Source of the DNA: a virus
Virus record (IMG/VR): IMGVR_UViG_3300024433_000003
Span: 1-41,732 of that record
DNA length: 41,732 nucleotides
Reading direction: 5' to 3' (one strand)
In this document: piece by piece, positions 3,941 to 17,325 of the stretch
Layout of the letters: every line of letters starts with the position of its first letter
How positions within the stretch are numbered: the stretch's first letter is position 1
Translations under genes and position numbers: made by a program
Notes under the pieces: model-generated
The model's database searches: none
Seen by the model: the letters and a program-made list of their open reading frames with translations, nothing else
Told to the model about the DNA's origin: nothing

Positions 3941-3943
3941 AGC

Positions 3944-4442: not shown

Positions 4443-5049
4443 AGTCAAAGACCTCCTGTCTCAATCTCTCATTGGCAATGTTGACATGGTCTTGTTCATT
4501 ATCAAAAGCAAGAAAAGAACGACCCGAATCAATACAAGCTCGAGGAACAACACCAGAACCACTACACGGATCAAGGATTAAGTCATTTTTAGATGAAAAA
4601 GAAACGAGCTGTTGTATTAATTTCATTGGCTTTTCGTAAGGATGCACTGATTGTTTCCGATGAAGTGGCTGACAGGGAAGGTGGTCTGACCAAATTCTTG
4701 CATTTAGATTATAGCGGGGGTTTACAGCATAGACAAAGATTGGTTCCCAACGCCAAGCGTATTTTACTACACCCTTAGTCCAAATCAAAATCCTATACGG
4801 ACGGCCAAGTAAATCCAAAATATCATAAACTCGATTAGCGTTATTGAAGAACAAAACATAATCAACGGTTAGTCTTTTCATCCCACGAAACAGCTCGAGA
4901 AACCATTCTAAATAATTACCAGAGATGTCCTCATCTTTGTATGGTGGATCGCATAGACTAAAATCCACGCACCCATCGGGCAACTGAGGCATCAGTTCAA
5001 GACAATCTCCGCACTGAATTGTATTAGTCCACTCTTTTAATTTAGAAAT
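4429..5049 (-). CDS. DNA methyltransferase copy 2 (206 aa), apparent ATT start
   Basis: Beta-class amino-methyltransferase: DPPY at residues 34-37 (motif IV), a divergent middle, then HPYEKPMKLIQ and the SAM-binding loop LDPCSGSGVV near 158-168. The first ATG is at 4992, but homology to the neighbouring copy extends 19 codons upstream without any ATG, GTG or TTG. It aligns residue for residue (WxNTIQxGDCLxLM) up to an ATT at 5047-5049 that matches the neighbour's ATG. GGAGG lies six bases upstream and a TAA immediately precedes it. Target probably N6-adenine or N4-cytosine. Confidence 0.8.
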   Translation of the reverse strand: MSKLKEWTNTIQCGDCLELMPQLPDGCVDFSLCDPPYKDEDISGNYLEWFLELFRGMKRLTVDYVLFFNNANRVYDILDLLGRPYRILIWTKGVVKYAWRWEPIFVYAVNPRYNLNARIWSDHLPCQPLHRKQSVHPYEKPMKLIQQLVSFSSKNDLILDPCSGSGVVPRACIDSGRSFLAFDNEQDHVNIANERLRQEVFDYGTL

Positions 5050-5728: not shown

Positions 5729-6138
5729 TCCAATCCCGCCTTCTTTAAAATCTCTTTGCCTTCTTTGGTGTAGCGGGAGGCGAGTTTTGTGATCTTACCA
5801 ATATTGCTTTTTAAATAAGAGCCCAAAGGGAAATAGAGTATTCGATTATTTTCTTGAAATCTTAGACATACGCTTAAATCATACCAAACAATTTCAGCTA
5901 TAATATTCTTTCGTTGTAACTCAATTCTTACCACATCCCTCAGATACAACTCCTGCTTCGGATCAGATGAGTCGGTGGCTCCGATGGCTTGACATAAGAC
6001 AAAGAGTTCTTTGTTAAATACTGGTTTTCCCGTAGAGCAATCAATTGTCCAGAAAGCATTCGATACAACTTCACTAGTTCGTTTATCAATCAACTCAAAC
6101 TTAATCGGCATTCCATAATCACTTCTTTCTCGTATCAT
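5725..6138 (-). CDS. Hypothetical protein (137 aa)
   Basis: Mixed alpha/beta product with YLRDVVRIELQRKNIIAEIV and VCLRFQENNRILYFPLG. The strand pattern and position are faintly like YopX-type proteins, but the IYEGD signature is absent, so I leave it unassigned. Ends in ATGA overlap with methyltransferase copy 1, suggesting co-translation. Confidence 0.6.
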   Translation of the reverse strand: MIRERSDYGMPIKFELIDKRTSEVVSNAFWTIDCSTGKPVFNKELFVLCQAIGATDSSDPKQELYLRDVVRIELQRKNIIAEIVWYDLSVCLRFQENNRILYFPLGSYLKSNIGKITKLASRYTKEGKEILKKAGLE

Positions 6139-6296
6139 CTTGCTCCCTTCCCCAGCTTGTCTATGATTTTCTTTAAAGAATCGTCAATGACTTTTGTTAA
6201 TTTTAGTTGAGATTCACTTATTCTTAATAACCCTGCGTGGATCATTAAAAGACTTTTCCTAATTTCCCTTGAATCTATCGGATCAATTTTTGCCAT
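6135..6296 (-). CDS. Small helical hypothetical protein (53 aa)
   Basis: ATG at 6296 after GGAGAAAGG was preferred over an upstream in-frame start that would fall inside a structured leader. Product starts MAKIDPIDSREIRKSLL and is a probable amphipathic or coiled-coil helix. It overlaps the next gene by four bases. The leader stem at 6313-6368 lies 16 bases upstream. Confidence 0.6.
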   Translation of the reverse strand: MAKIDPIDSREIRKSLLMIHAGLLRISESQLKLTKVIDDSLKKIIDKLGKGAR

Positions 6297-6312
6297 ATTT
6301 CCTTTCTCCCCA

Positions 6313-6368
6313 GAGACCCGCCCTCTCGTTTTACCTACCATTTGAGGGGATGGTTTAGGACGGGTCTC
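6313..6368 (-). promoter_or_regulatory. Structured leader A upstream of the 53-aa gene
   Basis: On the minus-strand RNA, 6368-6357 pairs with 6324-6313: 12 base pairs including one U-G that would be a mismatch on the other strand. The loop holds an inner hairpin ACCAT/ATGGT whose apical CCCCUC can pair with GAGGG or with GGGGA next to the downstream ribosome binding site. Role inferred. Confidence 0.5.
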
Positions 6369-6383
6369 CGAGTTAATCGTTCC

Positions 6384-6800
6384 TCAATACATTGCTCCCC
6401 ACTGACAAGCACCACATCCAATCATACATGCAACGAATTTCGCCAAACATTCGTTCCAGCAATCATCGTTCAGTATGTCACAGCCGGATACACACGAACA
6501 ATACGTCCTGTTGCATCTTTTCAAGCATGTTATGCACTCATCGGGGGCATTGGGAGATTTTATTAAGCGGTCAAGCATATAGAACATCATGCTTTCAATC
6601 TCGGTGTGCGAAGCCAATCCCATAATCTTGTCCGTCTTTTCTTCAGACGTAAGCTCCTCATCCACAAAGACGCTGACTATATCTGTGAAAAGCTTCTCCT
6701 CCCAGGGATGTCCCGCCACCTTGTCCTTTGCAAAAGACTCCCAGGGATGTGCGAACACAAGAGCAACGATTAATGCTAATAATAATAGATTCCTCTTCAA
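6384..6800 (-). CDS. Exported cysteine-rich protein (138 aa)
   Basis: TTG at 6800 was chosen because AGGAGGT sits eight bases upstream; the GTG at 6809 is too close to it. Signal peptide: MKRNLLLLALIVALVFAHPW then ESFA. The C-terminal third packs about 11-12 cysteines (CITCLKRC, CSCVSGCDIL, CWNEC, CMIGCGAC), suggesting a disulphide-rich periplasmic or secreted protein. HPWE occurs twice at residues 20-35, from a local DNA repeat. Possible roles include superinfection exclusion or envelope stress; none is shown by the sequence. Confidence 0.7.
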   Translation of the reverse strand: MKRNLLLLALIVALVFAHPWESFAKDKVAGHPWEEKLFTDIVSVFVDEELTSEEKTDKIMGLASHTEIESMMFYMLDRLIKSPNAPDECITCLKRCNRTYCSCVSGCDILNDDCWNECLAKFVACMIGCGACQWGAMY

Positions 6801-6828
6801 CTTTATCACCTCCTCTCCTTTCGGGTTT

Positions 6829-7044
6829 CTATGGTATTCGGACTAAATCTTTTTCTGGGACTCTTCCATATTTACCTGGAGCTGTTAAGCCTGGGAATAT
6901 AACATGAATTATGTTTCCATATCTACCCACCATAGAACCACGAAGGGTGGGGCTATCTTTATGAAATACACTATCCCCTTTTTTAAGAGGTCGATCTTTC
7001 TTTTTTTTCTTATTCATTCTTCTCCCCTCGCTTTCGGGTTTCAT
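6829..7044 (-). CDS. Small basic SH3/KOW-like protein (71 or 62 aa)
   Basis: ATG at 7044 overlaps the upstream stop (ATGA) and has AGGAG eight bases upstream. An ATG at 7017 after GGGGAG gives a 62-aa alternative. After a Lys-rich start comes KKGDSVFHKDSPTLRGSMVG then GRYGNIIHVIFPG, a beta-barrel pattern like KOW/SH3-type domains that bind RNA or ribosomes. The fold is an inference. Confidence 0.6.
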   Translation of the reverse strand: MKPESEGRRMNKKKKKDRPLKKGDSVFHKDSPTLRGSMVGRYGNIIHVIFPGLTAPGKYGRVPEKDLVRIP

Positions 7045-7259
7045 TCAGGAAACTCCTGAATCTTTTCCAAACTATTAAGAATCAGCATCCCCTTATGAAC
7101 GGGTTCTAAGGATTCTATCCTGTTTTCAATAATAAAACCCGCCTGGAATAAATCCATCGCTCCGTTCGCTTTGAAATAAACCCTGAAATCAGCTACATAT
7201 TTTTCACCGCACTTTTCCGAGCCACATTCAGGGCACTTTACTTTCTTCTTTTTGGGCAT
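7041..7259 (-). CDS. Small zinc-finger-like protein (72 aa)
   Basis: N-terminal KVKCPECGSEKCGEKYVADF gives a CxxC knuckle plus a third cysteine. The rest is helical. ATG at 7259; stop overlaps the next start by ATGA. No family recognised. Confidence 0.6.
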   Translation of the reverse strand: MPKKKKVKCPECGSEKCGEKYVADFRVYFKANGAMDLFQAGFIIENRIESLEPVHKGMLILNSLEKIQEFPE

Positions 7260-7283
7260 GGCTTTGTTCCTTCCCGCAATCTT

Positions 7284-7472
7284 TTATTGCATATTTTCTG
7301 ACAAATCTTCAAATTGCTCTTTCAAATTGATGGCCTTGTCCCTTGAATCTCTTGGTGGTGTATGACAAACGCAAACACCAAGAGCATTGAGTATTGAATT
7401 GACTTCATCCACATCTAACCATAAGAGGACTTCATCACCTTGACTATTTTGTCTTGTGTCCAAAACCTTCAT
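7284..7472 (-). CDS. Small hypothetical protein (62 aa)
   Basis: ATG at 7472 after AGAGGAGAAG. Contains EVLLWLDVDEVNSILNALG and two cysteines in CVCH. Resembles small phage proteins with a solvent-exposed helix; not assigned. Confidence 0.6.
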   Translation of the reverse strand: MKVLDTRQNSQGDEVLLWLDVDEVNSILNALGVCVCHTPPRDSRDKAINLKEQFEDLSENMQ

Positions 7473-7512
7473 CTTCTCCTCTCTTTTTTAGATTCACTTC
7501 GTTCACTACAAG

Positions 7513-7629
7513 TCAGGGCACCGCCCTTGTCTTTTTGCTTACATTTTCAGAAAGCTCTTTTGAATAATCAAGCTTTTCAGAATCGGTGAGAATACATTCA
7601 AGGTGAAGATTCTCTTTCGTCTTTCTCAT
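7513..7629 (-). CDS. Truncated copy of a common phage early protein (38 aa)
   Basis: ATG at 7629, ribosome binding site GGAGGAAAAGGA. The sequence LECILTDSEKLDYSKELSEN followed by VSKKTRA matches the start of a widespread phage protein (LTDEEKLEYSKELAE...) that normally runs to about 100 residues; here a TGA ends it after 38. The family has no firm function. A hairpin (ACAAGGGC with GCCC and CUUGU) covers its last codons. Confidence 0.55.
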   Translation of the reverse strand: MRKTKENLHLECILTDSEKLDYSKELSENVSKKTRAVP

Positions 7630-7662
7630 TATCCTTTTCCTCCTTTTTCCTATCCCTTCATT

Positions 7663-7845
7663 TCATTCTACCGCCATCATTTCATCGTAAAGCTTCTGTG
7701 TTCGCTCCCCCAATTCATATCGTTTAATTAGGGGATCAAAAACAAAAGAGAGGGCAAGGGTGGGATCTACACCCTTTTTTTCCTCTAAATCCTGATAGTG
7801 TCCCCGCACTGTGTCAAAATGTTTTTTGGCTTTTTCCCAATCCAT
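7663..7845 (-). CDS. Small hypothetical protein (60 aa)
   Basis: ATG at 7845 after AAAGGGA. Helical acidic protein starting MDWEKAKKHFDTVRGHYQDL. No family recognised. Its leader carries the long stem at 7864-7941. Confidence 0.6.
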   Translation of the reverse strand: MDWEKAKKHFDTVRGHYQDLEEKKGVDPTLALSFVFDPLIKRYELGERTQKLYDEMMAVE

Positions 7846-7863
7846 TTTTTCCCTTTCTTTTAA

Positions 7864-7941
7864 GGGGTTCGCCGGCTTGGAGTAGTAAGGTGCCTGATGT
7901 CTTAGAATCGGCTAATTCAATTGGACAAACCGGCGAATCCC
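7864..7941 (-). promoter_or_regulatory. Structured leader B upstream of the 60-aa gene
   Basis: Arms 7941-7930 and 7875-7864 pair 11 of 12 on the minus strand (one A-C mismatch, which would be G-U on the plus strand, so strand choice is less certain here). The 54-base loop contains an inner hairpin GCCGAU / AUC-A-GGC. It ends 19 bases before the start codon. Confidence 0.45.
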
Positions 7942-7953
7942 ATTCAAGTAGTC

Positions 7954-8256
7954 CTACCTTACCGTAATCCTCCTCTTTGTTTCTGTCACTTCAAAATCCA
8001 AAACCCTACCCTTGAAACCCCTAATTCCGTCTTGGGGGGTACCCGCATCCAAAGTTCTTTCATACGCCTCATGGACTTCGGATTCAGTCTCATAAAAACC
8101 GATAGGAGACAAGTCTCCATTTTCCGAAATCTTTTTAAACAAAAAGAATGAAGAGTTTTTTACGGCGACCCTTCTTGGTTTCTTTTGCTTCGTTGTGGGA
8201 TTCAAAATTGAATGCTTCGCTTTCTCTTCATCTAACTCAAATTTTGATTTTTCCAT
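7954..8256 (-). CDS. Hypothetical protein (100 aa)
   Basis: ATG at 8256 follows AAAGGTGG at eight bases; an upstream GTG overlaps that site and was rejected. Basic N-terminus, then GFYETESEVHEAYERTLDAG and a C-terminal strand VLDFEVTETKRRITVR. No family recognised. Confidence 0.6.
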   Translation of the reverse strand: MEKSKFELDEEKAKHSILNPTTKQKKPRRVAVKNSSFFLFKKISENGDLSPIGFYETESEVHEAYERTLDAGTPQDGIRGFKGRVLDFEVTETKRRITVR

Positions 8257-8283
8257 CTTTATCGCCACCTTTCTTTTTGGATT

Positions 8284-8505
8284 TTAGTGTTCCGGTGCGG
8301 GTTGTTCCTCTAAGATCGCCCTTGCTTTCCTCCGCCTCATCTGAACCATCTCTTGGTATAACCCTATGCTTGTCTCAGTCCACAGACCAGGGCACCCCGC
8401 AGGGCAGACATAGGTTGGCTCCCACTTTCTGCCATACTGGAGCTTGAAAGCCCGTTTCTCATCAGTAGAAGGTTCAAGCGGACTGCCACATTTTGGGCAT
8501 CTCAT
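8284..8505 (-). CDS. Zinc-ribbon protein (73 aa)
   Basis: Four metal-ligand cysteines in MRCPKCGSPLEP and YVCPAGCPGLW make a classical zinc ribbon, followed by a basic helix EMVQMRRRKARAILEE. ATGA overlap with the stop of the 286-aa protein upstream, suggesting they are made together. Confidence 0.7.
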   Translation of the reverse strand: MRCPKCGSPLEPSTDEKRAFKLQYGRKWEPTYVCPAGCPGLWTETSIGLYQEMVQMRRRKARAILEEQPAPEH

Positions 8506-9362
8506 TTCTCAAGCTCCCCTGTGTTGAAGTTGGTGGATCCGTTTTCAAGCTCCCCCGCCAAGACTTCTTGACCTCGAATTTGTGGCAGATAATCTTTAAT
8601 TATCTTTTGGAGTTGAAAATACAAAGATGATGGGATTTTCTCTAAAGGCTTGAATTGGATCAGTGAAATTTCGTAACCGCTTGACGATTGAGCGGGAATT
8701 AAACTGAACTCCACAAACCTTGAAATAGGTGCAATACCACGAGATATAAGGGTATTTATGAATTTGTTTGTTGCTTTGAGTCCAGTCGGTGAAATTGTTA
8801 GCCGACAGGGAAAGATGAATCCATCAACATAAATATGTAGTCGCCAACGATTCTGGCAAGCCTTGCCCTCGGTTTGATTCCCCTTATCGTCTCGCCCTGT
8901 TTTGTATTGATTGTAGTAACAGGTCGCACAATCTCCAAAGACTTCTTTGTCACCCATTATCTCTCTTTGGCGACTTCCTTGTTTAGCATCCAAGCTTGAG
9001 CAATCGGGCGGAACCTTTTTACCACCCGATTCTTTGATGCTCTTTTCCCAATACGCATTGCACTTTTGATCGTCAATGATAACCCCCATAAAGGTTTTGG
9101 TGGTATAAGAAGATTCACCCTCTTCGCTTCCGGGGAACTCAAAGATACATGCGGCGGCGGGTAAAATCTTTATCAATGGGAGTTCGGGGACGATGTTCTG
9201 CATGGATCGTTGAAGGTCTTCCTTCAACATAAGGTCAAGTTTTTTCTGGTCGATTCCAGCAGGTAAAGATTGGTCAATTTCAATGAGTTGTGTCTGAGGT
9301 TTTTCTGTTTTCTTCGGTTCAAGACCATCAAACACATTTTCGTTTTTGTTTTTCTTAGTCAT
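8502..9362 (-). CDS. Putative ssDNA-binding/recombination accessory protein (286 aa)
   Basis: The largest left-arm protein. After a Lys-rich start, residues 60-150 read ILPAAACIFEFPG, FMGVIIDDQKCNAYWEKS, then PPDCSS, FGDCATCYYNQ and GKACQNRWRLHIYVD, a four-cysteine arrangement embedded in beta strands. The C-terminal half contains LTISPTGLKATNKFINTLIS. I recall this pattern from phage proteins in replication/recombination clusters that are suspected ssDNA-binding proteins; the functional call is tentative. Its neighbours (coiled-coil and zinc-ribbon genes) fit such a cluster. Confidence 0.5.
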   Translation of the reverse strand: MTKKNKNENVFDGLEPKKTEKPQTQLIEIDQSLPAGIDQKKLDLMLKEDLQRSMQNIVPELPLIKILPAAACIFEFPGSEEGESSYTTKTFMGVIIDDQKCNAYWEKSIKESGGKKVPPDCSSLDAKQGSRQREIMGDKEVFGDCATCYYNQYKTGRDDKGNQTEGKACQNRWRLHIYVDGFIFPCRLTISPTGLKATNKFINTLISRGIAPISRFVEFSLIPAQSSSGYEISLIQFKPLEKIPSSLYFQLQKIIKDYLPQIRGQEVLAGELENGSTNFNTGELEK

Positions 9363-9382
9363 CGTTTTCTCCTTTCTTATTT

Positions 9383-9625
9383 TTATATTCCTTTATATAG
9401 GTTGGAGCTATCTTGAAGTAGGACAATCAATAGCTGATGCCTTGTTCCTTGTGGCAACGCACCACTCAACACTTCCAATAATCCCTTGGCTTGCCTTTTA
9501 TATATTTGCTCCGCTTGCTTCAAAGAACCCACTTGTGGCATCTCTATCTCTATGGTAATCTGAGCAGACTCAACTGGTTTTTTTTTGGTAATAGGTGATG
9601 CTTTATATAAAGATATTGATTTCAT
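9383..9625 (-). CDS. Hypothetical protein (80 aa)
   Basis: ATG at 9625 with AAGGAAG upstream; an in-frame ATG at 9652 lies inside the preceding gene and lacks a site. Contains ITIEIEMPQVGSLKQAEQIY and a long C-terminal helix. No family recognised. Confidence 0.6.
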   Translation of the reverse strand: MKSISLYKASPITKKKPVESAQITIEIEMPQVGSLKQAEQIYKRQAKGLLEVLSGALPQGTRHQLLIVLLQDSSNLYKGI

Positions 9626-9641
9626 AAATCTTCCTTTCAGT

Positions 9642-10127
9642 TTATTTGGCATAAAGGTTTAGCTCCGCCACGATCAAATCCTTGTGGGCTAACAATGCCT
9701 GAAACTCTCGGCGGAGATTGTCAGCCTCACCCTCATGTTCCCAAATCCTAAACTCAACTTTTGAGTATTCTTCTTTGATGTCTCGATACTCTTGGTCTCT
9801 GACCAACCTCTTAGTCAATTCCGCTTTTCGTAAGGGTTCATTGGAAAATTTCGGCTTTCCCTTTTCACCCTCTTCACCGTTGATCTCAAACATAATCTCC
9901 GCTTCACGTTGCTTCATTCGTTGTTCAATTTCTGCCAGTTCACTTTTCTTGTTGAGAGCATCAATCTGTGAAGCCTTAATCTTTTCGGGCAAGCTCAAAA
10001 GTCGATCCTTCAGTTCGGGAAGCAAAAATTCTTCTTTGATTGCTTTTTGACGATACCTGAGTTCTTGGTTTACTTTCCCTAAAATTTGTGTCCATTCTTG
10101 AAGTTCCTCTAAAAATTGATTTGACAT
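9642..10127 (-). CDS. Coiled-coil protein (161 aa)
   Basis: ATG at 10127 after AAGGAGAG. Almost wholly helical and charged, with heptad-like stretches (ELAEIEQRMKQREAEIM, REFQALLAHKDLIVAELN). Size, charge and place beside the putative ssDNA-binding gene suggest an accessory role in recombination, but no family is recognised. Confidence 0.6.
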   Translation of the reverse strand: MSNQFLEELQEWTQILGKVNQELRYRQKAIKEEFLLPELKDRLLSLPEKIKASQIDALNKKSELAEIEQRMKQREAEIMFEINGEEGEKGKPKFSNEPLRKAELTKRLVRDQEYRDIKEEYSKVEFRIWEHEGEADNLRREFQALLAHKDLIVAELNLYAK

Positions 10128-10128
10128 T

Positions 10129-10344
10129 TTAATCTCTCCTTCGTATCTTAAATGTGAACGGTTTCTTGGGCGGGTTTCCTTGAGCGAGGAAGCCCGCTTT
10201 GTTAGCTTCTTTATCTTCAAGGGTTTTTACTAAGGCTTTTTGTTCTTCTGTCCATTCAGATTCAGGGAAATTTTCTTTAATGGCTCGCACCTCGTTGTGG
10301 GATAATTGCCACTCATACTGGTGGCCAATCATCTTCGTAATCAT
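10129..10344 (-). CDS. Hypothetical protein (71 aa)
   Basis: ATG at 10344 (or 10332) inside the end of the previous gene, so translation is probably coupled. Sequence includes NFPESEWTEEQKALVKTLED and a basic C-terminus FTFKIRRRD. No family recognised. Confidence 0.55.
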   Translation of the reverse strand: MITKMIGHQYEWQLSHNEVRAIKENFPESEWTEEQKALVKTLEDKEANKAGFLAQGNPPKKPFTFKIRRRD

Positions 10345-10561
10345 AGTTTATTATTAAATTCCTTTCTTGTCTTAAAGATATTTTCCTATTGTTTTCTTCA
10401 CAGGCAATTTTATATTGATCAACAGCCTTATCAACTAATCGTTGAGCATCCTTTCTTATCTTGTCTACATCTACTAAAGGAATGTCCTCATCAGTCCCAA
10501 GACATATCTCAAAGTGGCAATAATCATAGCTCCGCATTATTTTGACGCTTGCTTTTGGCAT
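10313..10561 (-). CDS. Conserved phage hypothetical protein (82 aa)
   Basis: Sequence MPKASVKIMRSYDYCHFEIC then VDKIRKDAQRLVDKAVDQYK resembles a small protein common beside recombination genes in phages, with a beta N-terminus and an amphipathic helix. Function unknown. Confidence 0.6.
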   Translation of the reverse strand: MPKASVKIMRSYDYCHFEICLGTDEDIPLVDVDKIRKDAQRLVDKAVDQYKIACEENNRKISLRQERNLIINYDYEDDWPPV

Positions 10562-10570
10562 CCTCTTCTC

Positions 10571-10732
10571 TCACCTCCTTTCAAGGTCTATTGACGACAG
10601 GTCCGCAATCTCCTCCTCCTTGTCGAGTAGCTCTTGAATCTGGTTTGCCAGATGTTCAGGATCAACGGCGGAAAGAAAGACCGTCCTGCCATCTTTTAGG
10701 TCTATCGTGGCACCTATACTTTTAATCTCCAT
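10571..10732 (-). CDS. Small hypothetical protein (53 aa)
   Basis: ATG at 10732 with AGGAGG seven bases upstream; TGA at 10571. Starts MEIKSIGATIDLKDGRTVFL and continues as an acidic helix ending in IDLERR. The start shares one base with the upstream TGA (TGATG), so it is translationally coupled. Confidence 0.65.
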   Translation of the reverse strand: MEIKSIGATIDLKDGRTVFLSAVDPEHLANQIQELLDKEEEIADLSSIDLERR

Positions 10733-10876
10733 CAGCTATCCTCCTCTTGTTTGGCACGTTCGACTTCATCGGGGGCAACAGCCATGATTCGATCATTGCC
10801 ACCCCATGTGTGCCCTCACTAATTCTTTTAGGCACCGTAATTCTTTGTAGGTAAGATACAAACCATATTGAGGCAT
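10732..10876 (-). CDS. Two-frame small gene, probably one protein with a +1 shift
   Basis: ATG at 10876 after AAGGAGGAG opens MPQYGLYLTYKELRCLKELV and stops after 27 codons at CAA-TGA (10793). The +1 frame continues with DRIMAVAPDEVERAKQEEDS and ends at a TGA that overlaps the next start (TGATG). Joined, the two halves make a natural-looking protein of about 47-48 residues. Possible explanations are programmed +1 shifting, an assembly indel near the GGGG run, or two separate peptides. Confidence 0.45.
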
Positions 10877-11037
10877 CACTCCTCCTTTGCGGTGGACTCA
10901 TCATTGCCACCGCCTTTATAAATAAATGCTTCTTTTTCTATCTGTAAGCAATCATCACATAGACCATTGTTAATTTCCTGATTATATATTTCCTCTTTCC
11001 ATGTTAGTATCTCATGGCATTCCTTACATCTTATCAT
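10876..11037 (-). CDS. Small zinc-ribbon protein (53 aa)
   Basis: ATG at 11037 after GGGAGGAT. CKECHEILTW and GLCDDCLQIEKE give two CxxC knuckles about 20 residues apart, a compact zinc ribbon. The stop TGA overlaps the next ATG by one base. Confidence 0.65.
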   Translation of the reverse strand: MIRCKECHEILTWKEEIYNQEINNGLCDDCLQIEKEAFIYKGGGNDESTAKEE

Positions 11038-11040
11038 CAC

Positions 11041-11157
11041 TTATCCTCCCGAACCAAGAATTGAAATCATCCCCACCAAGTAAGCCAAAGTAAAAAACAC
11101 CGAAAGGTGATTGATGGTCAGATCCATAAGGTTTTGTTTGAAGTCAAATTCAGTCAT
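11041..11157 (-). CDS. Tiny membrane protein (38 aa)
   Basis: ATG at 11157 overlaps the upstream stop by eight bases; TAA at 11041. A single hydrophobic segment (LSVFFTLAYLVGMISILGSG) follows about 17 polar residues. Could be a small membrane effector or holin-like peptide; only topology is supported. Confidence 0.5.
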   Translation of the reverse strand: MTEFDFKQNLMDLTINHLSVFFTLAYLVGMISILGSGG

Positions 11158-11386
11158 CGTTTTTATATACCGGCGTGAAAGATACCGTAAATCCAGCTTG
11201 TGGTCTTACATGACGCACCATATCACCACCTTCATCTGTAATTATTAGGACATCGCCATAAGATTGAATGTGACATGAACCACCTTCGGGTATCGGATAT
11301 ATAAAATTCTGTGGGGGATAATGATCCGAAACCAAGTCCATGATTATACTAACTGCCTGTTTCCGTTTCTTTTTTTTACCAAACAT
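11150..11386 (-). CDS. Hypothetical protein (78 aa)
   Basis: ATG at 11386 after AAAGGAGA. Basic N-terminus (MFGKKKKRKQ), then beta-rich CHIQSYGDVLIITDEGG. No family recognised. The three-way-junction leader H lies immediately upstream. Confidence 0.6.
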   Translation of the reverse strand: MFGKKKKRKQAVSIIMDLVSDHYPPQNFIYPIPEGGSCHIQSYGDVLIITDEGGDMVRHVRPQAGFTVSFTPVYKNDD

Positions 11387-11407
11387 TTTGTTCTCCTTTC
11401 TTTTTTT

Positions 11408-11494
11408 ATGATCAAGCCACCCGCAAAAAACTCGGCATACCCAAGAATTCTATGTTGCGGTCTACCAGACCCGGATGGCTCGACCAAAGATCAT
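11408..11494 (-). promoter_or_regulatory. Structured leader H: three-way-junction RNA
   Basis: Minus-strand RNA. Outer stem AUGAUC/GAUCAU (11494-11489 with 11413-11408), then AGCCAUCCG/CGGGUGGCU (11480-11472 with 11423-11415), enclosing hairpins GGUCU-GGU-AGACC (11471-11459) and CUUGG-GUAUG-CCGAG. Two pairs are G-U only on the minus strand, supporting a minus-strand RNA. The stop of the upstream 53-aa gene lies in the outer stem. Confidence 0.6.
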
Positions 11495-11652
11495 TTCTTC
11501 ATCCACCAATAGTTTTCTTTTTTCAACATCAATTTATCTGAAATGGTTTCCCACCACGGTATTCTAAATTTTTTATGCAAATGACGCCACACCGAAATTT
11601 GTCCGATAATAACACCCACAACCAATGCTATGCCTATCAAAATATAATTCAT
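11491..11652 (-). CDS. Small membrane protein (53 aa)
   Basis: ATG at 11652 directly after GAGGAGG and eight further bases. Hydrophobic N-terminus (NYILIGIALVVGVIIGQI) forms one transmembrane helix; the Trp/Lys-rich tail RIPWWETISDKLMLKKENYW is probably cytoplasmic. The 15 bases before its ATG are complementary to a loop in leader C. Confidence 0.65.
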   Translation of the reverse strand: MNYILIGIALVVGVIIGQISVWRHLHKKFRIPWWETISDKLMLKKENYWWMKK

Positions 11653-11757
11653 AATTCAATCCTCCTCAAAGTGCGGGAAGAGAGGCTCCGATAAGAAAGC
11701 TAAGTTGCGAGGAGGATGGAATTAGGGGCTGTAGTATTGACCACATCGAAGCCTCTC
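11653..11757 (-). promoter_or_regulatory. Structured leader C with anti-Shine-Dalgarno loop
   Basis: Stem 11757-11745 with 11692-11680: 13 pairs, one of them G-U only on the minus strand. Within the 52-base loop, 11723-11709 (AAUUCCAUCCUCCUC) is complementary at 14 of 15 positions to 11667-11653, the ribosome binding site and spacer that abut the ATG at 11652. Loop-to-downstream pairing would form a pseudoknot hiding the start. Confidence 0.65.
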
Positions 11758-11764
11758 GTGAAGA

Positions 11765-12145
11765 TCATGGTTTCTTCTCCAAAAGTTCAGGGTTAACGAT
11801 TTCCCAATCCATAGAACCAAGTGGAACAAAATTAGCTTTCACGTCCTCCCTTACCTCCATTTGTTTTGGCAGTTTAACAATAAAGGTATCTACATCCCAT
11901 ACTATTTTGCCAACTAACTCTTCTTCTCCATCCATGTTCCGCACCGTATCCCCCTCATAAATCTCTTTTCCAGTTTTGATGTCGAGGGAACCGGTGAACT
12001 GATCTTTGTCGGTGTGGGGAATGGGAAACGATGACCAGTCTTTATTGTTAGTGGAATATATCCAACCGCATTTTGCAGAAGGCAGGGCTTTTTCATACCC
12101 GACAATCTTATCCCCAATGCGAAGCCTGTCTTTTATCTCTCTCAT
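11765..12145 (-). CDS. YopX family protein (126 aa)
   Basis: The YopX signature is clear near residues 49-70: QFTGSLDIKTGKEIYEGDTV, followed by the strand GKIVWDVDTFIVKL and a final WEIVNPELLEKKP that matches the family's GN-x-x-x-x-PELL ending. YopX-type proteins are common small phage proteins of unknown function with a beta-barrel fold. Length is normal. ATGA overlap with the upstream 40-aa gene. Confidence 0.85.
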   Translation of the reverse strand: MREIKDRLRIGDKIVGYEKALPSAKCGWIYSTNNKDWSSFPIPHTDKDQFTGSLDIKTGKEIYEGDTVRNMDGEEELVGKIVWDVDTFIVKLPKQMEVREDVKANFVPLGSMDWEIVNPELLEKKP

Positions 12146-12264
12146 GGTTTCTTCTTTGGGTTTAACCTTTGTTTTTTAAGACGAATCGCTTCAGCCAGAC
12201 GTGTCCGCTTTTTTTCTTCTTTTATCTCTTTTTCTTTTTGTTTCACTATTTCGTAAATGTTCAT
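12142..12264 (-). CDS. Small basic helical protein (40 aa)
   Basis: ATG at 12264 after GGAGGAG, overlapping both neighbours by ATGA. Starts MNIYEIVKQKEKEIKEEKKR; a single charged helix. Coupling on both sides supports translation. Function unknown. Confidence 0.6.
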   Translation of the reverse strand: MNIYEIVKQKEKEIKEEKKRTRLAEAIRLKKQRLNPKKKP

Positions 12265-12344
12265 GGTTTCTCCTCCAACTCTTTTATCCCTTCCGCAATC
12301 TCTTCGACCATTCCTGCAATCCAGTCAGCGAGTTTTTTTAGCAT
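12261..12344 (-). CDS. Amphipathic 27-aa peptide gene
   Basis: ATG at 12344 inside the end of the previous gene, stop in ATGA overlap with the next. Product MLKKLADWIAGMVEEIAEGI plus seven residues is a textbook amphipathic helix that could sit on a membrane. It may instead serve only to couple its neighbours. Confidence 0.45.
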   Translation of the reverse strand: MLKKLADWIAGMVEEIAEGIKELEEKP

Positions 12345-12459
12345 TGGGCTTGTCCTTTTCAACCTCTTTCTCCGCCTCTTTCGTCTCAGTCATGATCGCC
12401 TTAACATCTTCAATCAGGGCTAAGGTTTCTTTTGTGTCGCGGGTCTTTTCTTCAGCCAT
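12325..12459 (-). CDS. Small charged protein (44 aa)
   Basis: ATG at 12459 after GAGAGAG; an in-frame extension upstream would run through leader D and was rejected. Sequence MAEEKTRDTKETLALIEDVK then a Lys/Glu-rich helix. Function unknown. Confidence 0.55.
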   Translation of the reverse strand: MAEEKTRDTKETLALIEDVKAIMTETKEAEKEVEKDKPNAKKTR

Positions 12460-12536
12460 GATTAGCTCTCTCTTTTCTATTTTCCCCCCAGGGCGGACCG
12501 GGAAAAAACTGCTTATCACAAAAAAGCCGATCCGCC
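12456..12536 (-). promoter_or_regulatory. Structured leader D with loop complementary to a start codon
   Basis: Stem 12536-12527 with 12501-12492 (ten pairs, one U-G only on the minus strand). The 25-base loop contains UUGUGAUAAGC (12521-12511), which can pair at 10 of 11 positions (three of them G-U) with GCUAAUCAUGG (12466-12456) covering the downstream ATG. Confidence 0.5.
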
Positions 12537-12582
12537 AGGAGGGTTCCCTTAACCTTTTGGAGGGAGGATAAGGGTAAACCAA

Positions 12583-12849
12583 TTACTTTACATTAAATAC
12601 AATTTCACAATCACAATAACCGCCATGTTCTTCAAAGTATTTTAATGAACCATCTGTGTCGATTGTTTTACCCATCTTAGAAAGGATTTTGCGAGCAAAA
12701 CTTTTATCTTGTTCACCCTTGCATTTCCAAGTTACTTTTCCCTTATCATCTTCTTTAAAATCACAGCCCTCTTTACTTTGAAGACGATCAATAAATTCTT
12801 GCCAACGTGGATGTTTAGGATTCATTATTTTTTTTGTTTGTTTAATCAT
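12583..12849 (-). CDS. DUF2695 family protein (88 aa)
   Basis: Ends in YFEEHGGYCDCEIVFNVK, the hallmark GGYCDCE-x-x-x-NV of DUF2695. PRWQEFIDRLQSKEGCDF and SFARKILSKMGKTIDTDGSL also fit the family. Start ATG at 12849 after AAAGGAGA. Family function unknown; often found in phages and bacterial accessory regions. Confidence 0.85.
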   Translation of the reverse strand: MIKQTKKIMNPKHPRWQEFIDRLQSKEGCDFKEDDKGKVTWKCKGEQDKSFARKILSKMGKTIDTDGSLKYFEEHGGYCDCEIVFNVK

Positions 12850-12864
12850 TTTCAATCTCCTTTC

Positions 12865-12945
12865 CCCCGCTGTGCGGGGATGTTCGAGGGTTTAATTTTT
12901 ACCCAAGCAACTACCTCTTTTTCATTTTGTTTCAAGAACCCTCGA
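12865..12945 (-). promoter_or_regulatory. Structured leader E upstream of the DUF2695 gene
   Basis: UCGAGGGUU (12945-12937) pairs with AACCCUCGA (12892-12884), nine pairs, and a GC-rich hairpin CCCCGC-ACA-GCGGGG follows just before the AAAGGAGA site. The upstream arm lies in the last codons of the preceding gene, so it may be partly constrained by coding; weaker than the other leaders. Confidence 0.35.
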
Positions 12946-13143
12946 CTCAACTCCGCTTTTAGGTGTAAATTTTGGATTCTTGGGGCCCATTCCAGATCGA
13001 CTTGGATTTTTTCCAAACCGATATTGCCAAAGGGAACAATCCTCAGTTTCGCACCTTCTCACCTCAGCGGAATTACCAACCCAACAGTCAATACATTTTG
13101 CTCGAATAGCTCTTAATGGGGTAAGCTTCTTCATTTTAGCCAT
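12922..13143 (-). CDS. Conserved phage zinc-binding protein (73 aa)
   Basis: LTPLRAIRAKCIDCWVGNSA followed by EVRRCETEDCSLWQYRFGKN matches a common small phage protein (SPLKAIRAKCLDC...EVR.C...CPLYPYRFGKNP) with four conserved cysteines. Function unknown, presumably metal and nucleic-acid binding. Confidence 0.75.
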   Translation of the reverse strand: MAKMKKLTPLRAIRAKCIDCWVGNSAEVRRCETEDCSLWQYRFGKNPSRSGMGPKNPKFTPKSGVESRVLETK

Positions 13144-13146
13144 CTT

Positions 13147-13509
13147 TCAATCTCCTTTCTGTTTACCCAGCCTAACCTGCAATCTCAAAGCATCCCAGAC
13201 AGCCCAGTTCAGAAACCAGACTATTTCCTCTTCATGGATGCGTATTCCCGAAGAGTCCACTACGACCTTGTAACCCAGAAGCTCCTTCTGTCCATTGGGG
13301 AATATCTGTCGACACTTGAGAACCTGAACGGTCTGAAAGGTGGAGTCCCCGGAGGCACTCACCGCCCAGAAGGGATATTCATTTATGAGGGTTTCGATTT
13401 CTTCTGCTTTGATGTCTTCGCAGATTGAAAACAACATGAATATCATACAAAGAACCAAAAAGGCGATGAAAAGCCCAACAACAAGACGTGTTTTTGTTTT
13501 CTCGGTCAC
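13147..13509 (-). CDS. Single-span membrane protein (120 aa)
   Basis: GTG at 13509 in a GTGA overlap. One transmembrane helix near residues 8-28 (RLVVGLFIAFLVLCMIFMLF), then about 90 residues with a beta-rich region (TVQVLKCRQIFPNG, YKVVVDSSGIRIHEEE). Topology N-in with an exported domain is likely. No family recognised. Confidence 0.6.
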   Translation of the reverse strand: MTEKTKTRLVVGLFIAFLVLCMIFMLFSICEDIKAEEIETLINEYPFWAVSASGDSTFQTVQVLKCRQIFPNGQKELLGYKVVVDSSGIRIHEEEIVWFLNWAVWDALRLQVRLGKQKGD

Positions 13510-13763
13510 TTTATACCCTTTCGTTTTGATCGTCGTTTAGGTGTGCCCTTGGGTGCCCTGTGCTTGATTTTAGGGGGACGGTGCATCTTACGGTTCTCAC
13601 AACCAAAAACGGTTATCTTGCCATTTTGGAATAGCTTCTCGCCGGAGAAGTTAGGACAAGGGCAAAGACGAACCCTGATGTTTTGCCGAAACGTTGACAA
13701 CACTGGTTTACAATTCAGACAGGCCTTCAACTTCAGACCTTTTTCGTTTTTAAGGGTTTTCAT
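13506..13763 (-). CDS. Basic zinc-binding-like protein (85 aa)
   Basis: Cysteines in KLKACLNCKPVL and VRLCPCPNFSG plus a later GCEN suggest a metal site; the C-terminus is strongly basic (HRAPKGTPKRRSKRKGIK), suggesting nucleic-acid binding. ATGA overlap upstream and GTGA overlap downstream. Confidence 0.6.
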   Translation of the reverse strand: MKTLKNEKGLKLKACLNCKPVLSTFRQNIRVRLCPCPNFSGEKLFQNGKITVFGCENRKMHRPPKIKHRAPKGTPKRRSKRKGIK

Positions 13764-13957
13764 GGTTTCTTCTCCCTGACAACCGTATATCTTTTCCCGT
13801 TGATCCCGATAAACCAGCGGATACTATCCTTGTCTAAAAGTTTGGTCGCAAACATAATTTCTTCGACATTACCCCAAGGTATTGTGAGTTTCGTAATCTT
13901 TGCCTCTCGATTTATCCAGGCATCGTAAAGCTTTCTGTCACCACCATGAAAGATCAT
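13760..13957 (-). CDS. Hypothetical protein (65 aa), possibly leaderless
   Basis: ATG at 13957; the in-frame TTG at 13966 lies in a -10 box and was rejected. No Shine-Dalgarno is visible. A TTGACT/TATATT promoter would begin transcription about at the ATG. Sequence starts MIFHGGDRKLYDAWINREAK and contains RWFIGINGKRYTVVREKK. Confidence 0.6.
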   Translation of the reverse strand: MIFHGGDRKLYDAWINREAKITKLTIPWGNVEEIMFATKLLDKDSIRWFIGINGKRYTVVREKKP

Positions 13958-13964
13958 AATTGTC

Positions 13965-13992
13965 AATATAGGTCAAGCTCAAATCCAGTCAA
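13965..13992 (-). promoter_or_regulatory. Internal minus-strand promoter
   Basis: TTGACT (13992-13987) and TATATT (13970-13965) separated by 16 bases, the same spacing as the main promoters. It lies in the 70-base gap between two genes and ends seven bases before an ATG. Confidence 0.5.
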
Positions 13993-14027
13993 GCCTAAAG
14001 ATTAAAAAGATTCACCTTAGATTTATC

Positions 14028-14336
14028 TTACGTTTCACCCATTCTTTTCTGCTCCAGCATTCGCAAGCGATTTCGGGAATATTCCGCCAGTAAATCACTG
14101 AGCACTTTCCAACCGGCGGGATCGGCACAAGCCGCCTCTAATACCGCACCAGCTTGCTCCAAAAACAGCCTTGTGTTTCGATCCATATCTTTATTAGGGG
14201 TGGAAACTACCACATCGTCACCGATAAAAACAACTATAGATTTCTCATAAGCAAGGCGTTTCTCTAAATGAAAACACCAGCCTAAAGAAAGTCCTACTAC
14301 TAAGATCAGGAAAACAATAAGAATGTTCTTGTTCAT
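14028..14336 (-). CDS. Membrane-anchored protein (102 aa)
   Basis: N-terminal transmembrane helix NILIVFLILVVGLSLGWCF, then an exported-looking charged helical domain (FLEQAGAVLEAACADPAGWK). An i-spanin-like topology is possible but unproven. ATGA overlap with the upstream gene. Confidence 0.6.
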   Translation of the reverse strand: MNKNILIVFLILVVGLSLGWCFHLEKRLAYEKSIVVFIGDDVVVSTPNKDMDRNTRLFLEQAGAVLEAACADPAGWKVLSDLLAEYSRNRLRMLEQKRMGET

Positions 14337-14479
14337 CTTTTTTTATCTCTCCTTTTTTTCATTCTTTCTAATTCTTCTCTTTCTTTCTTCTCGCAATCTG
14401 AGCAAATTCCATGACTAATGTCTGGATCGTCTTTATCGCCAGAGATATGCTTTCCACACCATGAGCAAATTGTTTTCAT
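14333..14479 (-). CDS. Small zinc-finger protein (48 aa)
   Basis: ICSWCGKHI...DISHGICSDCEKK carries a four-cysteine knuckle motif (CxWCGK ... SHGICxxC), followed by a basic helix ending KKRRDKKR. TGA overlaps the next ATG (ATGA). DNA or RNA binding is inferred. Confidence 0.65.
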   Translation of the reverse strand: MKTICSWCGKHISGDKDDPDISHGICSDCEKKEREELERMKKRRDKKR

Positions 14480-14609
14480 AATTCACCACTTTTTCCCAAT
14501 ATCTTTTAAAGGTTTTAATGTCATAGTGCATTGCAAAACGTCGTCCACTTGGCGACGTAGCATACCCAATAAGATCACCATTCCTGATTGAAAAGGATTC
14601 AAATTTCAT
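14433..14609 (-). CDS. Small hypothetical protein (58 aa)
   Basis: ATG at 14609 after AAGGATGG. Starts MKFESFSIRNGDLIGYATSP and is rich in aromatic and basic residues. It overlaps the zinc-finger gene by 47 bases, which is more than usual here, so either start may be later. Leader F precedes it. Confidence 0.5.
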   Translation of the reverse strand: MKFESFSIRNGDLIGYATSPSGRRFAMHYDIKTFKRYWEKVVNYENNLLMVWKAYLWR

Positions 14610-14621
14610 TTTCCACCATCC

Positions 14622-14720
14622 TTATATAAAGAAAAGACAGACCGGCGGAGATCGTAGGGATGCAACGTCCCTTGAAGTTCCGGTCTGCCTTTTCAATTTG
14701 TTAAAGTTTATGAGTTGCAT
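14622..14720 (-). CDS. Possible 32-aa leader peptide within leader F
   Basis: ATG at 14720 follows GGAG at eight bases; TAA at 14622. Start MQLINFNKLKRQTGTSRDVA. Its coding region overlaps both arms of the long stem, and its ribosome binding site plus ATG are complementary to the stem loop. It may be a regulatory leader peptide rather than a functional protein. Confidence 0.3.
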   Translation of the reverse strand: MQLINFNKLKRQTGTSRDVASLRSPPVCLFFI

Positions 14721-14733
14721 TTTTACGATCTCC
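14631..14733 (-). promoter_or_regulatory. Structured leader F with loop complementary to an upstream start
   Basis: Stem of 15 pairs: 14694-14680 with 14645-14631 (one G-U only on the minus strand). Loop segment 14666-14647 is complementary at 17 of 20 positions (three-base internal mismatch) to 14733-14714, which contains GGAG and the ATG at 14720. The two pairings together form a pseudoknot or exclude each other. Confidence 0.6.
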
Positions 14734-14743
14734 AGGTTAAAGG

Positions 14744-14956
14744 TTAGCGGTTAAGATGTCGGCAGGCATACATCACACCAACACCACAAATTAAATCATA
14801 CCTATACTCTACTTCTGAAACAAAATCTTTAAAGGCCTTCTCTATCGCCAGCGACCGGACTTCAGCAATACTATGGTGAACAGCCTTTAAAGCTGACCAT
14901 TTACCGCTTCGCCATTGGTGAAAAAAGTGGTTTGCTATTTTGGGATTTTGTTGCAT
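14744..14956 (-). CDS. First left-operon gene, hypothetical (70 aa)
   Basis: ATG at 14956 with GGAGG nine bases upstream; an upstream in-frame TTG at 15007 falls in the -10 box and was rejected. Starts MQQNPKIANHFFHQWRSGKW and continues with HHSIAEVRSLAIEKAFKDF. Helical. As the first gene from the leftward promoter it is probably expressed early. Confidence 0.65.
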   Translation of the reverse strand: MQQNPKIANHFFHQWRSGKWSALKAVHHSIAEVRSLAIEKAFKDFVSEVEYRYDLICGVGVMYACRHLNR

Positions 14957-15005
14957 CAGACACGACCTCCGAATTAAAGGTTTACTTCTATCTTTCTCTA
15001 TCGGC

Positions 15006-15033
15006 AATATAATAGAAAACTTTAATCATGCAA
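15006..15033 (-). promoter_or_regulatory. Leftward promoter for the minus-strand operon
   Basis: TTGCAT (15033-15028) and TATATT (15011-15006) with a 16-base spacer, upstream of the ATG at 14956. Overlaps one arm of the inverted repeat at 15031-15057, a good place for a repressor. Confidence 0.65.
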
Positions 15034-15057
15034 GGAAAAAATAAAAAATAATTCCTT
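15031..15057. promoter_or_regulatory. AT-rich inverted repeat over the leftward promoter
   Basis: CAAGGAA (15031-15037) and TTCCTTG (15051-15057) flank an AT-only spacer of 13 bases. It overlaps the -35 box of the leftward promoter. Operator or origin element by inference. Confidence 0.45.
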
Positions 15058-15086
15058 GAACTACAACAACTTAACAAAAAACTTCT

Positions 15087-15101
15087 GCACAATAATTGTG
15101 C
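15087..15101. promoter_or_regulatory. Perfect palindrome in the divergent control region
   Basis: GCACAATAATTGTGC, a 7-1-7 palindrome; a half-site TTGTGCG recurs near 15135, about 40 bases on. Typical size for a dimeric regulator or initiator site. Confidence 0.5.
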
Positions 15102-15233
15102 GGTGTCATAAAAGCTACAAACCCGCATGGTTGTGCGATAGTGACCGTTATTTCGTCAGCAAACGTAGGCGGGGCGTGGATTCATAGAGCATGAAAATGT
15201 TGAAAGTATTTTATATTGAATCATAAAAATATC

Positions 15234-15261
15234 TTGACAAATATAAGGATGGGATTATATT
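15234..15261 (+). promoter_or_regulatory. Rightward promoter for the plus-strand arm
   Basis: TTGACA (15234-15239), 16 bases, TATATT (15256-15261). The strongest promoter match in the window. Transcription would start near 15268, leaving a leader of about 120 bases that contains stem G. Confidence 0.75.
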
Positions 15262-15297
15262 GGCTTTCGAGATGGAACCATTCAATAAAAATCTTTT

Positions 15298-15376
15298 AGA
15301 GAACCATAGCCGGATGAAGGGATATTTCCCCTATGTTTCATCTCTCCCGGAGTCCGGTTATGTTCTCTTATAAGAG
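15298..15376 (+). promoter_or_regulatory. Structured leader G before the replication gene, possibly bistable
   Basis: AGAGAAC (15298-15304), a bulged C, and ATAGCCGGA (15306-15314) pair with 15353-15368: 16 pairs with one G-U on the plus strand. The end of the 3' arm can instead pair with AGAGA in CTCTTATAAGAG (15365-15376), next to the GAGGGGAG ribosome binding site. An inner UUUCCCC could also pair with GGGGAG. Confidence 0.55.
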
Positions 15377-15390
15377 AGGGGAGTTTTAAA

Positions 15391-16101
15391 ATGGCAAGAC
15401 GGAGAATGATTGACCCACAATTTTGGTCAAATAAAGAGTTCTTTTTGAAACTGCTTGGGGGGGTAAAGCAACTTTTTCCGGCAAAAAGTGAACGCTACTG
15501 TATGCAAGTGTGTAGAAATGTTCGCCTTTTTTACATCGGACTATGGGGGTGTGCTGACGATTTTGGAAAGTTTTTGTATGATTTGAATAAAATTATCGGA
15601 GAAACTGCTCCGTTCGATACAGACCTACCCAAAACCTATTTCAAAATGATGCTAAAAGTTTTAGAGATTTCAAAACGAATTTATGTTTATGAACATGAAA
15701 GTGTTACTTACGGTGTTATCCTTAACTTCCTTGAACACCAAACAATTAGCCACCCAACACCCTCAAAGTTACCTAATCCAAATTTCGAGAACTTCTCCAG
15801 ATTTATTCAAGAACATTTCCCGAACGACTCCGAAAAAACTCTATTACAAGAGAAGTTAACAAAGAAGTTAACAAAAAAAGAAGAAGTAGAAGTTAAAAGA
15901 GAAATTGAAGAACCCAAAAGAACTTTTCTTTCTCCTTCTCAAAGTCAAAACCAAAACCCAACCCCACCACCAAAACCCAAATATGAACCCGGACCACAAT
16001 TCTGCCCAGCCTGTAAAAAACCGATGGCAGATGAAGGCGATAAAGTGTTCTGCACTGAATGCGGAATACGAAAATCTAAAAGAGAGGTGAAACATGGATG
16101 A
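15391..16101 (+). CDS. Replication-initiator-like winged-helix protein with C-terminal zinc ribbon (236 aa)
   Basis: ATG at 15391 after GAGGGGAG. Residues 1-110 (MIDPQFWSNKEFF, RLFYIGLWGCADDFGKF, KRIYVYEHESVTYGVILNFL) match the N-terminal winged-helix domain of phage replication proteins that bind the origin. A Lys/Glu and Pro-rich linker follows, with PNPNFENF and repeated KLTKK, then a zinc ribbon near residues 204-225 (CPACKKPMADEG...CTECG). It would recognise the origin and recruit host replication proteins. No helicase-loader ATPase domain is present. Confidence 0.7.
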   Translation: MARRRMIDPQFWSNKEFFLKLLGGVKQLFPAKSERYCMQVCRNVRLFYIGLWGCADDFGKFLYDLNKIIGETAPFDTDLPKTYFKMMLKVLEISKRIYVYEHESVTYGVILNFLEHQTISHPTPSKLPNPNFENFSRFIQEHFPNDSEKTLLQEKLTKKLTKKEEVEVKREIEEPKRTFLSPSQSQNQNPTPPPKPKYEPGPQFCPACKKPMADEGDKVFCTECGIRKSKREVKHG

Positions 16102-16309
16102 ACGTCACAAAAAATGGTGGCTGTTTATTAACTGGCTATGGGAAATGTGCCGATCAAATCAAAGAACTTGGGATCACCCAAAAACAGAAGAAGAAGCCTT
16201 AGAGCTGAAAGCACACTTTGAGGAAACCTACCCAGACTGGAAAAAAGGTGACAGCGTTAAAAATCTACCCGCACACAAAGATGAATTACCCAGCGAATTG
16301 CCCTTCTAA
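16094..16309 (+). CDS. Trp-rich hypothetical protein (71 aa)
   Basis: ATG at 16094 overlaps the replication gene by eight bases. Starts MDERHKKWWLFINWLWEMCR, followed by acidic helical sequence. No family recognised. A promoter lies directly downstream. Confidence 0.6.
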   Translation: MDERHKKWWLFINWLWEMCRSNQRTWDHPKTEEEALELKAHFEETYPDWKKGDSVKNLPAHKDELPSELPF

Positions 16310-16317
16310 AAAAAACT

Positions 16318-16345
16318 TTGACAAATATCAAACAGTTCTTATCTT
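16318..16345 (+). promoter_or_regulatory. Second rightward promoter
   Basis: TTGACA (16318-16323), 16 bases, TATCTT (16340-16345). Shares TTGACAAATAT with the promoter at 15234. Located just upstream of the 53-aa gene and the terminase cluster, so it may drive the late or packaging genes. Confidence 0.65.
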
Positions 16346-16375
16346 ATCTGCGTAGCCAGATTTAGAGGGAGGATT

Positions 16376-16537
16376 ATGAAACTCAACTCACTAAAGAAAA
16401 CTAAAGTATTTGAACGGTTCGATAAGATTATACCTGAGAAAGAAGCCGAAGACCTGACCCTGTTTATGGAACAAAAAAGAAAGAAACAAAGACGATGGGA
16501 GCCAACACTTTTTAATAGAAGAATGGAGTCAAGATAA
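16376..16537 (+). CDS. Small basic protein (53 aa)
   Basis: ATG at 16376 after GGGAGGA. MKLNSLKKTKVFERFDKIIP then a basic C-terminus KRKKQRRWEPTLFNRRMESR. Stop TAA overlaps the next ATG by one base. Function unknown; coupled to the terminase small-subunit candidate. Confidence 0.6.
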   Translation: MKLNSLKKTKVFERFDKIIPEKEAEDLTLFMEQKRKKQRRWEPTLFNRRMESR

Positions 16538-17325
16538 TGGGACAAAAGACGACAAGAAACACTGATAAACTAACCGACACCCAAAAACGCAAGGCAAGGC
16601 GTAAGGGGCGACAGCTACAGGTTTTACATAGGAAAGTTATGGGGCAAACCGTCAAGGAGATCGCGGAACAGACGGGCTTCTCTGAATCTACGCTCTGGAA
16701 AGACATAAAAGAACTTCGTAACCAAGGCATTGACAAGGACTTAATAGAGCGTGAGCGTAACATTCACATAAAAGCCTTGCCCATAGCAACCGCAGTGCTT
16801 TTTGCTCACTTAATGCTTGGTGACAAAGAGGTGGCAATGGGTATGTCGAAAGGCTTGAAGGTCTGGACTGATAAGCTTGACATTGTCGCCAAGGTCGCAC
16901 CAGATGAGCAGCAGAAGAAAATGATGGAGAACATGGAGACCTTGCTCAAGCTGTCAAAGGACAAGGTGAAGAGGGCTTTGCCTGAGAAGACTACGGCTAT
17001 GGAGAAGACCAAAGAAGAGGGTGAGCTTGCTGTAGTTGAGGGTAGTAAGTTTGTGGGATATGTAGACAAGGTGGAGCAAACCAAAAAGGCTGAGACTCAA
17101 TCTCAATTAGGTGCAGAGAAAACCGTAGAGCATCACTTTACCGGAGAAGCCATCAGGTTTGAGAAGGGTTGCACCTGTCCCAATCAAGAAGTTACCGATA
17201 AAGCAGACTACACCATTGATCCTAAGTGTCCGGTGCATGGGGATAAGAAGCAAGAGCATCAAATTAAAGACGAGGACAAGGATCGAGGGGGGGGACACCC
17301 ACCCCCCAGGGGGTCGGAGGTATAG
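16537..17325 (+). CDS. Probable small terminase / HTH protein (262 aa)
   Basis: A helix-turn-helix near residues 35-60 (VMGQTVKEIAEQTGFSESTL) follows a basic N-terminus. Then come a helical region (about 60-135), a variable Lys/Glu linker, and a C-terminal Cys motif (GCTCPNQEV ... DPKCPVHG). Position two small genes upstream of the large terminase and the HTH-helical layout fit a small terminase subunit that binds packaging sites. It could also be a transcription regulator. The last codons include G8 and C6 runs that may be prone to slippage. Confidence 0.55.
   Translation: MGQKTTRNTDKLTDTQKRKARRKGRQLQVLHRKVMGQTVKEIAEQTGFSESTLWKDIKELRNQGIDKDLIERERNIHIKALPIATAVLFAHLMLGDKEVAMGMSKGLKVWTDKLDIVAKVAPDEQQKKMMENMETLLKLSKDKVKRALPEKTTAMEKTKEEGELAVVEGSKFVGYVDKVEQTKKAETQSQLGAEKTVEHHFTGEAIRFEKGCTCPNQEVTDKADYTIDPKCPVHGDKKQEHQIKDEDKDRGGGHPPPRGSEV

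Follow-up and report, generated by a model that had tools for sequence, protein, structure and literature searches.

What does the RNA just ahead of a gene for a predicted 53-aa membrane protein do when the loop of a hairpin in it is complementary to the Shine-Dalgarno (SD) sequence of that very gene? The question is raised by the minus strand of a viral stretch of 41,732 nt (IMGVR_UViG_3300024433_000003, positions 1-41,732; the whole of it is called the window here), the features of which are collected in Table 1. Two pairings are at stake. The first, S1, is a stem of 13 pairs including one U-G (14 when an inner G-U is counted) around a 52-nt loop, and lies exactly where the initial annotation had placed it, 11757-11745 pairing with 11692-11680. 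Since the opposite strand would have A/C in place of this U-G, the argument of the initial annotation that the pair is specific to the transcribed strand holds, though it is a weak one. The second pairing, S2, joins 11723-11709 in the loop to 11667-11653, which directly adjoins the ATG at 11652; the 14 of 15 complementary positions claimed for it are confirmed, with a single C/U mismatch, and a repeat search extends the match to 16 nt at 94%. The loop was also considered as an antisense to other ribosome-binding sites (RBSs) of the phage, a possibility rejected because the SD 15-mer has no second match at ≤3 mismatches. No tRNA or tmRNA was found.

Table 1. Coordinates of the element, its neighbours and further large-loop hairpins in the window
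Feature	Coordinates	Strand	Details and source
S1, 5' arm	11745..11757	minus	GAGAGGCUUCGAU
S1, 3' arm	11680..11692	minus	AUCGGAGCCUCUC
Loop inside S1	11693..11744	minus	52 nt
Anti-SD (S2 5' side, within the loop)	11709..11723	minus	complementary at 14/15
SD and spacer of the 53-aa ORF (S2 3' side)	11653..11667	minus	sequence
Mini-ORF, 22 codons	11700..11768	minus	read from the sequence; ATG 11768 to UAG 11702-11700
SD-like GGAG of the mini-ORF	11777..11780	minus	sequence; 9-12 nt upstream of ATG 11768
YopX-like gene, 126 aa, upstream	11765..12145	minus	ORF list; its TGA and the start codon of the mini-ORF overlap in ATGA
53-aa ORF, hydrophobic N-terminus	11491..11652	minus	ORF list; the controlled gene if the gate is real
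Four further large-loop hairpins 5' of RBSs	11409-11486, 12492-12536, 7868-7937, 6309-6372	minus	stem scan

The description of this stretch as a leader stands in part: most of it is an overlooked 22-codon ORF that begins at a start codon, spans the S1 5' arm and the anti-SD, and reaches its UAG after both, 47 nt ahead of ATG 11652. This mini-ORF has an SD-like motif and may be translated from its junction with the preceding gene. The latter matches PF09643 (YopX) with an E-value of 1.4e-4 and 22.3 bits, just below the cutoff of 22.4. Overlaps of this ATGA type are a frequent mode of translational coupling (PMC6728339). The junction itself, AGRAGAAACCATGA, occurs four times in the window against a mean of 0.00 expected from 100 shuffles, and a listed ORF begins at each of its other three copies (12142, 12261 and 13760). 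At all four sites (11765 and these three, minus strand) the upstream protein ends in KP and the ORFs overlap as ATGA, as if genes had been exchanged at a common border. Searches of the viral contigs and of the related record IMGVR_UViG_3300028835_000998 yielded no relative of the 53-aa protein, which also has no match in NCBIfam or PADLOC and no credible family, the sole hit being a weak PHROG tape-measure match (E 0.0019).

The best explanation, a tentative one at somewhat less than an even chance, is a translation-coupled gate: S1 and S2 would together close the RBS of the 53-aa gene, and translation of the mini-ORF would open it. On an early polycistronic mRNA, the S1 loop would bear the anti-SD and pair with the SD of the 53-aa gene, and the resulting pseudoknot would hide the RBS. 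Ribosomes that start at the overlap with the YopX-like gene would read across the S1 5' arm and the anti-SD and strip both, freeing the SD during their passage or at termination, and the output of 53-aa protein would then follow upstream translation. If true, the case would supply, from a phage, a pseudoknot that responds to upstream translation.

Both pairings exceed shuffled sequence at their place, which counts for the gate, as does the recurrence of the junction at the start of other ORFs. An S1-like stem (≤ -21 kcal/mol, within 3 nt of the same place) is found in 0 of 3000 dinucleotide shuffles of the leader. Shuffling of the loop yields S2 at ≥14/15 in 6 of 200,000 trials and, scored by duplex energy, a loop:SD match as good in 2 of 1000 shuffles (3 of 500 in a separate run). 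S2 is notable for its position and not as a repeat, since about 0.3 inverted repeats as good, with gaps of 20-70 nt, are expected in the whole window (an expectation drawn from six shuffles: 1, 0, 1, 0, 0, 0) and the window has 2. For the leader taken as a whole, the gain in folding over its shuffles is only modest (z -1.75).

A terminase search found close relatives, among which a single one reaches the early region: L007 (IMGVR_UViG_3300028835_000998, with overlapping loci), with a terminase 91% identical; scans of viral contigs and of genomes turned up no other record that contains this region. Other stretches matched in three pattern scans of viral contigs (8 of 9, 11 of 12 and 1 of 2) are unlike the window beyond the pattern, the exception being a 34-nt stretch of L032 (E 0.007), and the phages collection gave no DNA match. 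In the relative, a like junction opens a 35-codon ORF that ends on the same TTTGAGGAGGATTGA as in the window. The mini-ORF peptide is not conserved: it has 22 codons in the window versus 35 in the relative, and the two end in different frames. No 53-aa gene follows the 35-codon ORF, and conservation resumes at the leader of the gene that comes next. A blind stem scan detects in the relative a 10-bp stem, GGGGAGAUCC/GGGUCUCCCC, which differs in sequence from S1 but the 3' arm of which ends at the same aligned column as that of S1; a stem in that place arises in 2 of 3000 shuffles, and the same-place hairpin is a further point for the gate.

The alignment of the two genomes (MAFFT) is less favorable. 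The stem of the relative pairs other columns than S1, and clean covariation of S1 was not found: 65.4% of the S1 cells are paired, with 0 two-sided changes. As to the 14 pairs of S2, 6 are unchanged, 3 fall on a gap in the relative, 3 become G-U and 2 are broken; the SD is identical and the loop is changed with no compensation (0 two-sided changes), the CCUC core of S2 being kept. The loop:SD energy in the relative is not significant (0.19, or 0.90 with another tail). Variation of loop and RBS without compensation is what the initial annotation had named as speaking against its interpretation. It is seen here in part, in the loop and not in the SD, and in one relative from which the gene is absent. 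The missing S1 covariation, the unconserved mini-ORF peptide, and an S2 that is not significant in a genome lacking the gene, count against the gate; of the pairings proposed, the two genomes bear out only a hairpin in S1's place.

That this hairpin persists where no 53-aa gene follows speaks for the strongest rival, which is possible but on the unlikely side: the hairpin would belong to a series of intercistronic stems within the early operon that take part in mRNA processing, stability or insulation between genes, and the anti-SD match would be incidental. On the early minus strand (1-16600), a scan for stems of ≤ -22 kcal/mol that enclose 20-65 nt gives six, S1 among them and all directly 5' of an RBS, versus at most 2 in 60 shuffles; on the plus strand from 16601 to 41732 there are 0, versus a mean of 0.63 in 30 shuffles. 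Nor is this phage alone in having stems of this kind, because among 21 other contigs, most of which are near their shuffles (4 per strand), some exceed them: the minus strand of L012 has 3 versus 0.25 and that of L045 has 5 versus 1.0. A loop:SD match is no trait of all such leaders: among the 11 tested, the leader of 11652 is alone in having a strong one, that of 6296 having a weak one (0.04). The other ten leaders, having no strong match, both favor the intercistronic stems and weigh against the gate. It is the rarity of S2 at its place (the 6 in 200,000 given above) that these stems leave unexplained.

Could S1 and S2 form at the same time? The two cross, and therefore a nested fold accommodates one of them. 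The minimum free energy (MFE) fold of the region contains S2, together with a small hairpin inside the loop (11744-11740 with 11735-11731), and lacks S1, yet nested folds constrained to one pairing or the other tie, at -29.4 for S1 only and -30.2 for S2 only, the latter equal to the nested MFE. The stacks amount to -27.8 kcal/mol for S1 and -22.0 kcal/mol for S2, hence a sum of -49.8, to be compared with the nested -30.2, and the pseudoknot loops of 21, 16 and 12 nt are long enough. Once a pseudoknot is charged its penalty of some 10 kcal/mol and its minor per-base terms, S1 combined with S2 would still come out somewhat ahead of every nested fold, the energy being an estimate from stacks and not from a computed pseudoknot fold. 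The proposal of the initial annotation that a pseudoknot hides the SD of the 53-aa ORF is allowed by geometry and by stack energies, and its interpretation as a whole is partly supported.

In the nested ensemble, opening the RBS costs 5.8 kcal/mol, an ordinary value compared to the median of 5.5 over 66 gene starts hand-picked from the ORF lists, and this ordinary accessibility is another point against the gate. The cost is 13.5 when the S1 5' arm alone is blocked, 8.2 when the mini-ORF is blocked as far as the anti-SD, and 6.1 when it is blocked to 11688. Blocking the mini-ORF brings no gain in nested folds, and therefore translation would help only if the pseudoknot were the resting state; according to these folding models, this dependence is the main weakness of the coupling reading.

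The crossing of S1 and S2, their tie in energy and the rise from 5.8 to 13.5 would also suit a switch or operator that works without mini-ORF translation, its S1/S2 pseudoknot or alternative folds being governed by a small molecule or by some protein. Such a device is improbable: the relative does not keep the loop, a reading frame that starts at the junction crosses the element, and Rfam gives no match, neither at the gathering threshold in the window nor at E ≤ 5 in 11380-11800. The likeness to a riboswitch drawn in the initial annotation is accordingly not supported, and the element is not filed as one, because no aptamer family matched.

The translation-coupled gate would be a plausible new example of an already known type of control. 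The closest is the E. coli IF3 operon infC-rpmI-rplT with its L20 pseudoknot operator, in which a pseudoknot likewise extends from the upstream coding region to the next RBS and is opened by upstream translation: ribosomes on infC interfere with pseudoknot formation at rpmI (PMC6962249). The coupling of rpmI and rplT occurs by RNA unfolding at +52 nt (PMC12548453), versus +47 nt for the phage mini-ORF. Unlike that operon, the phage has a 22-codon mini-ORF as its upstream ORF, unrelated genes and no known repressor protein, and its case is known from sequence. The leader of T4 gene 32 is also a phage pseudoknot located 5' of an RBS, but it is found 67 nt upstream and is recognized by the protein that the gene encodes, whereas the pairing here would include the SD (PMC3014915). 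PreQ1-type translational riboswitches share the pairing of a loop with the SD region (PMC10622847, PMC11625349); the phage element differs from them by its long stems, the reading frame across it and the lack of an aptamer family match. Finally, the type I toxin mRNAs timP and tisB combine a small membrane protein, a masked RBS and a leader structure or pseudoknot (PMC11228461, PMC7708055). In contrast to these, the phage element belongs to an early phage operon, and promoter-like sites, examined for an antisense-RNA gene opposite the leader, are no commoner in 11300-12200 than in shuffles (3 versus 2.4 expected).

Two explanations would deprive the pairings of any function. The element may be what is left of a gene for a small protein, with its frame intact over 35 codons in the relative and different here. 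Both genomes have the same junction and the same TTTGAGGAGGATTGA end, which the frame of the relative reaches while that of the window stops at its UAG. A remnant is nevertheless quite improbable, given a same-place hairpin of different sequence in both genomes (2 of 3000) and a codon-position pattern that, judged by eye on the alignment, does not favor coding. Chance pairing alone is very improbable: it may account for the S2-like repeats expected per window and for the modest z of the whole leader, but not for the place-specific statistics or the same-place hairpin of the relative.

A broader proposal, fairly unlikely to hold in full, is that the early genes of this lineage share large-loop hairpin leaders (stems of ~10-17 bp, loops of ~25-50 nt, a 3' arm shortly ahead of the RBS) in which stems are kept while sequences change, and that the leader of 11652 is a pseudoknot gate sensing mini-ORF translation. 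If true, this would define a class of cis-regulatory phage RNA that is specific to the lineage and has no entry in Rfam. The gate, if real, would point to a group of structured leaders clustered within a single early region, with two members showing two-sided changes between the two genomes. The first, at 14609 (14607-14740, minus; 4537-4680 in L007), carries a 15-bp helix with every pair intact in either genome; between the two, 5 pairs have changed on both sides and 3 on one side. The leader ends in a U-rich tail and, as its loop is complementary to an upstream RBS and start codon (GGAGATCGT..ATGCAAC), resembles a pseudoknot that overlaps with a terminator-like hairpin and with a mini-ORF. 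The second, at 15391 (15298-15393, plus; 6114-6206 in L007), forms a long stem of 16 pairs that is interrupted in each genome by a bulge of one base; alignment columns coincide for 7 of the pairs, 3 of which have two-sided changes. It precedes a replication-initiation-like gene, and its loop sequence is rather conserved.

Two minor observations concern other parts of the early minus strand. The stretch 12459-12585 (1512-1650 in L007) has a second hairpin just upstream, CCCTTA/TAAGGG in the window and CTTTCAAG/CTTGAAAG in the relative, and its loop appears, by eye, pairable with a G-rich sequence ahead of the SD. At 4429-5728, two adjacent ORFs, which we take to be methyltransferase-like, contain near-identical stretches, LMPQLPDGCVD near the start and NERLRQEV near the end, perhaps as the result of a duplication.
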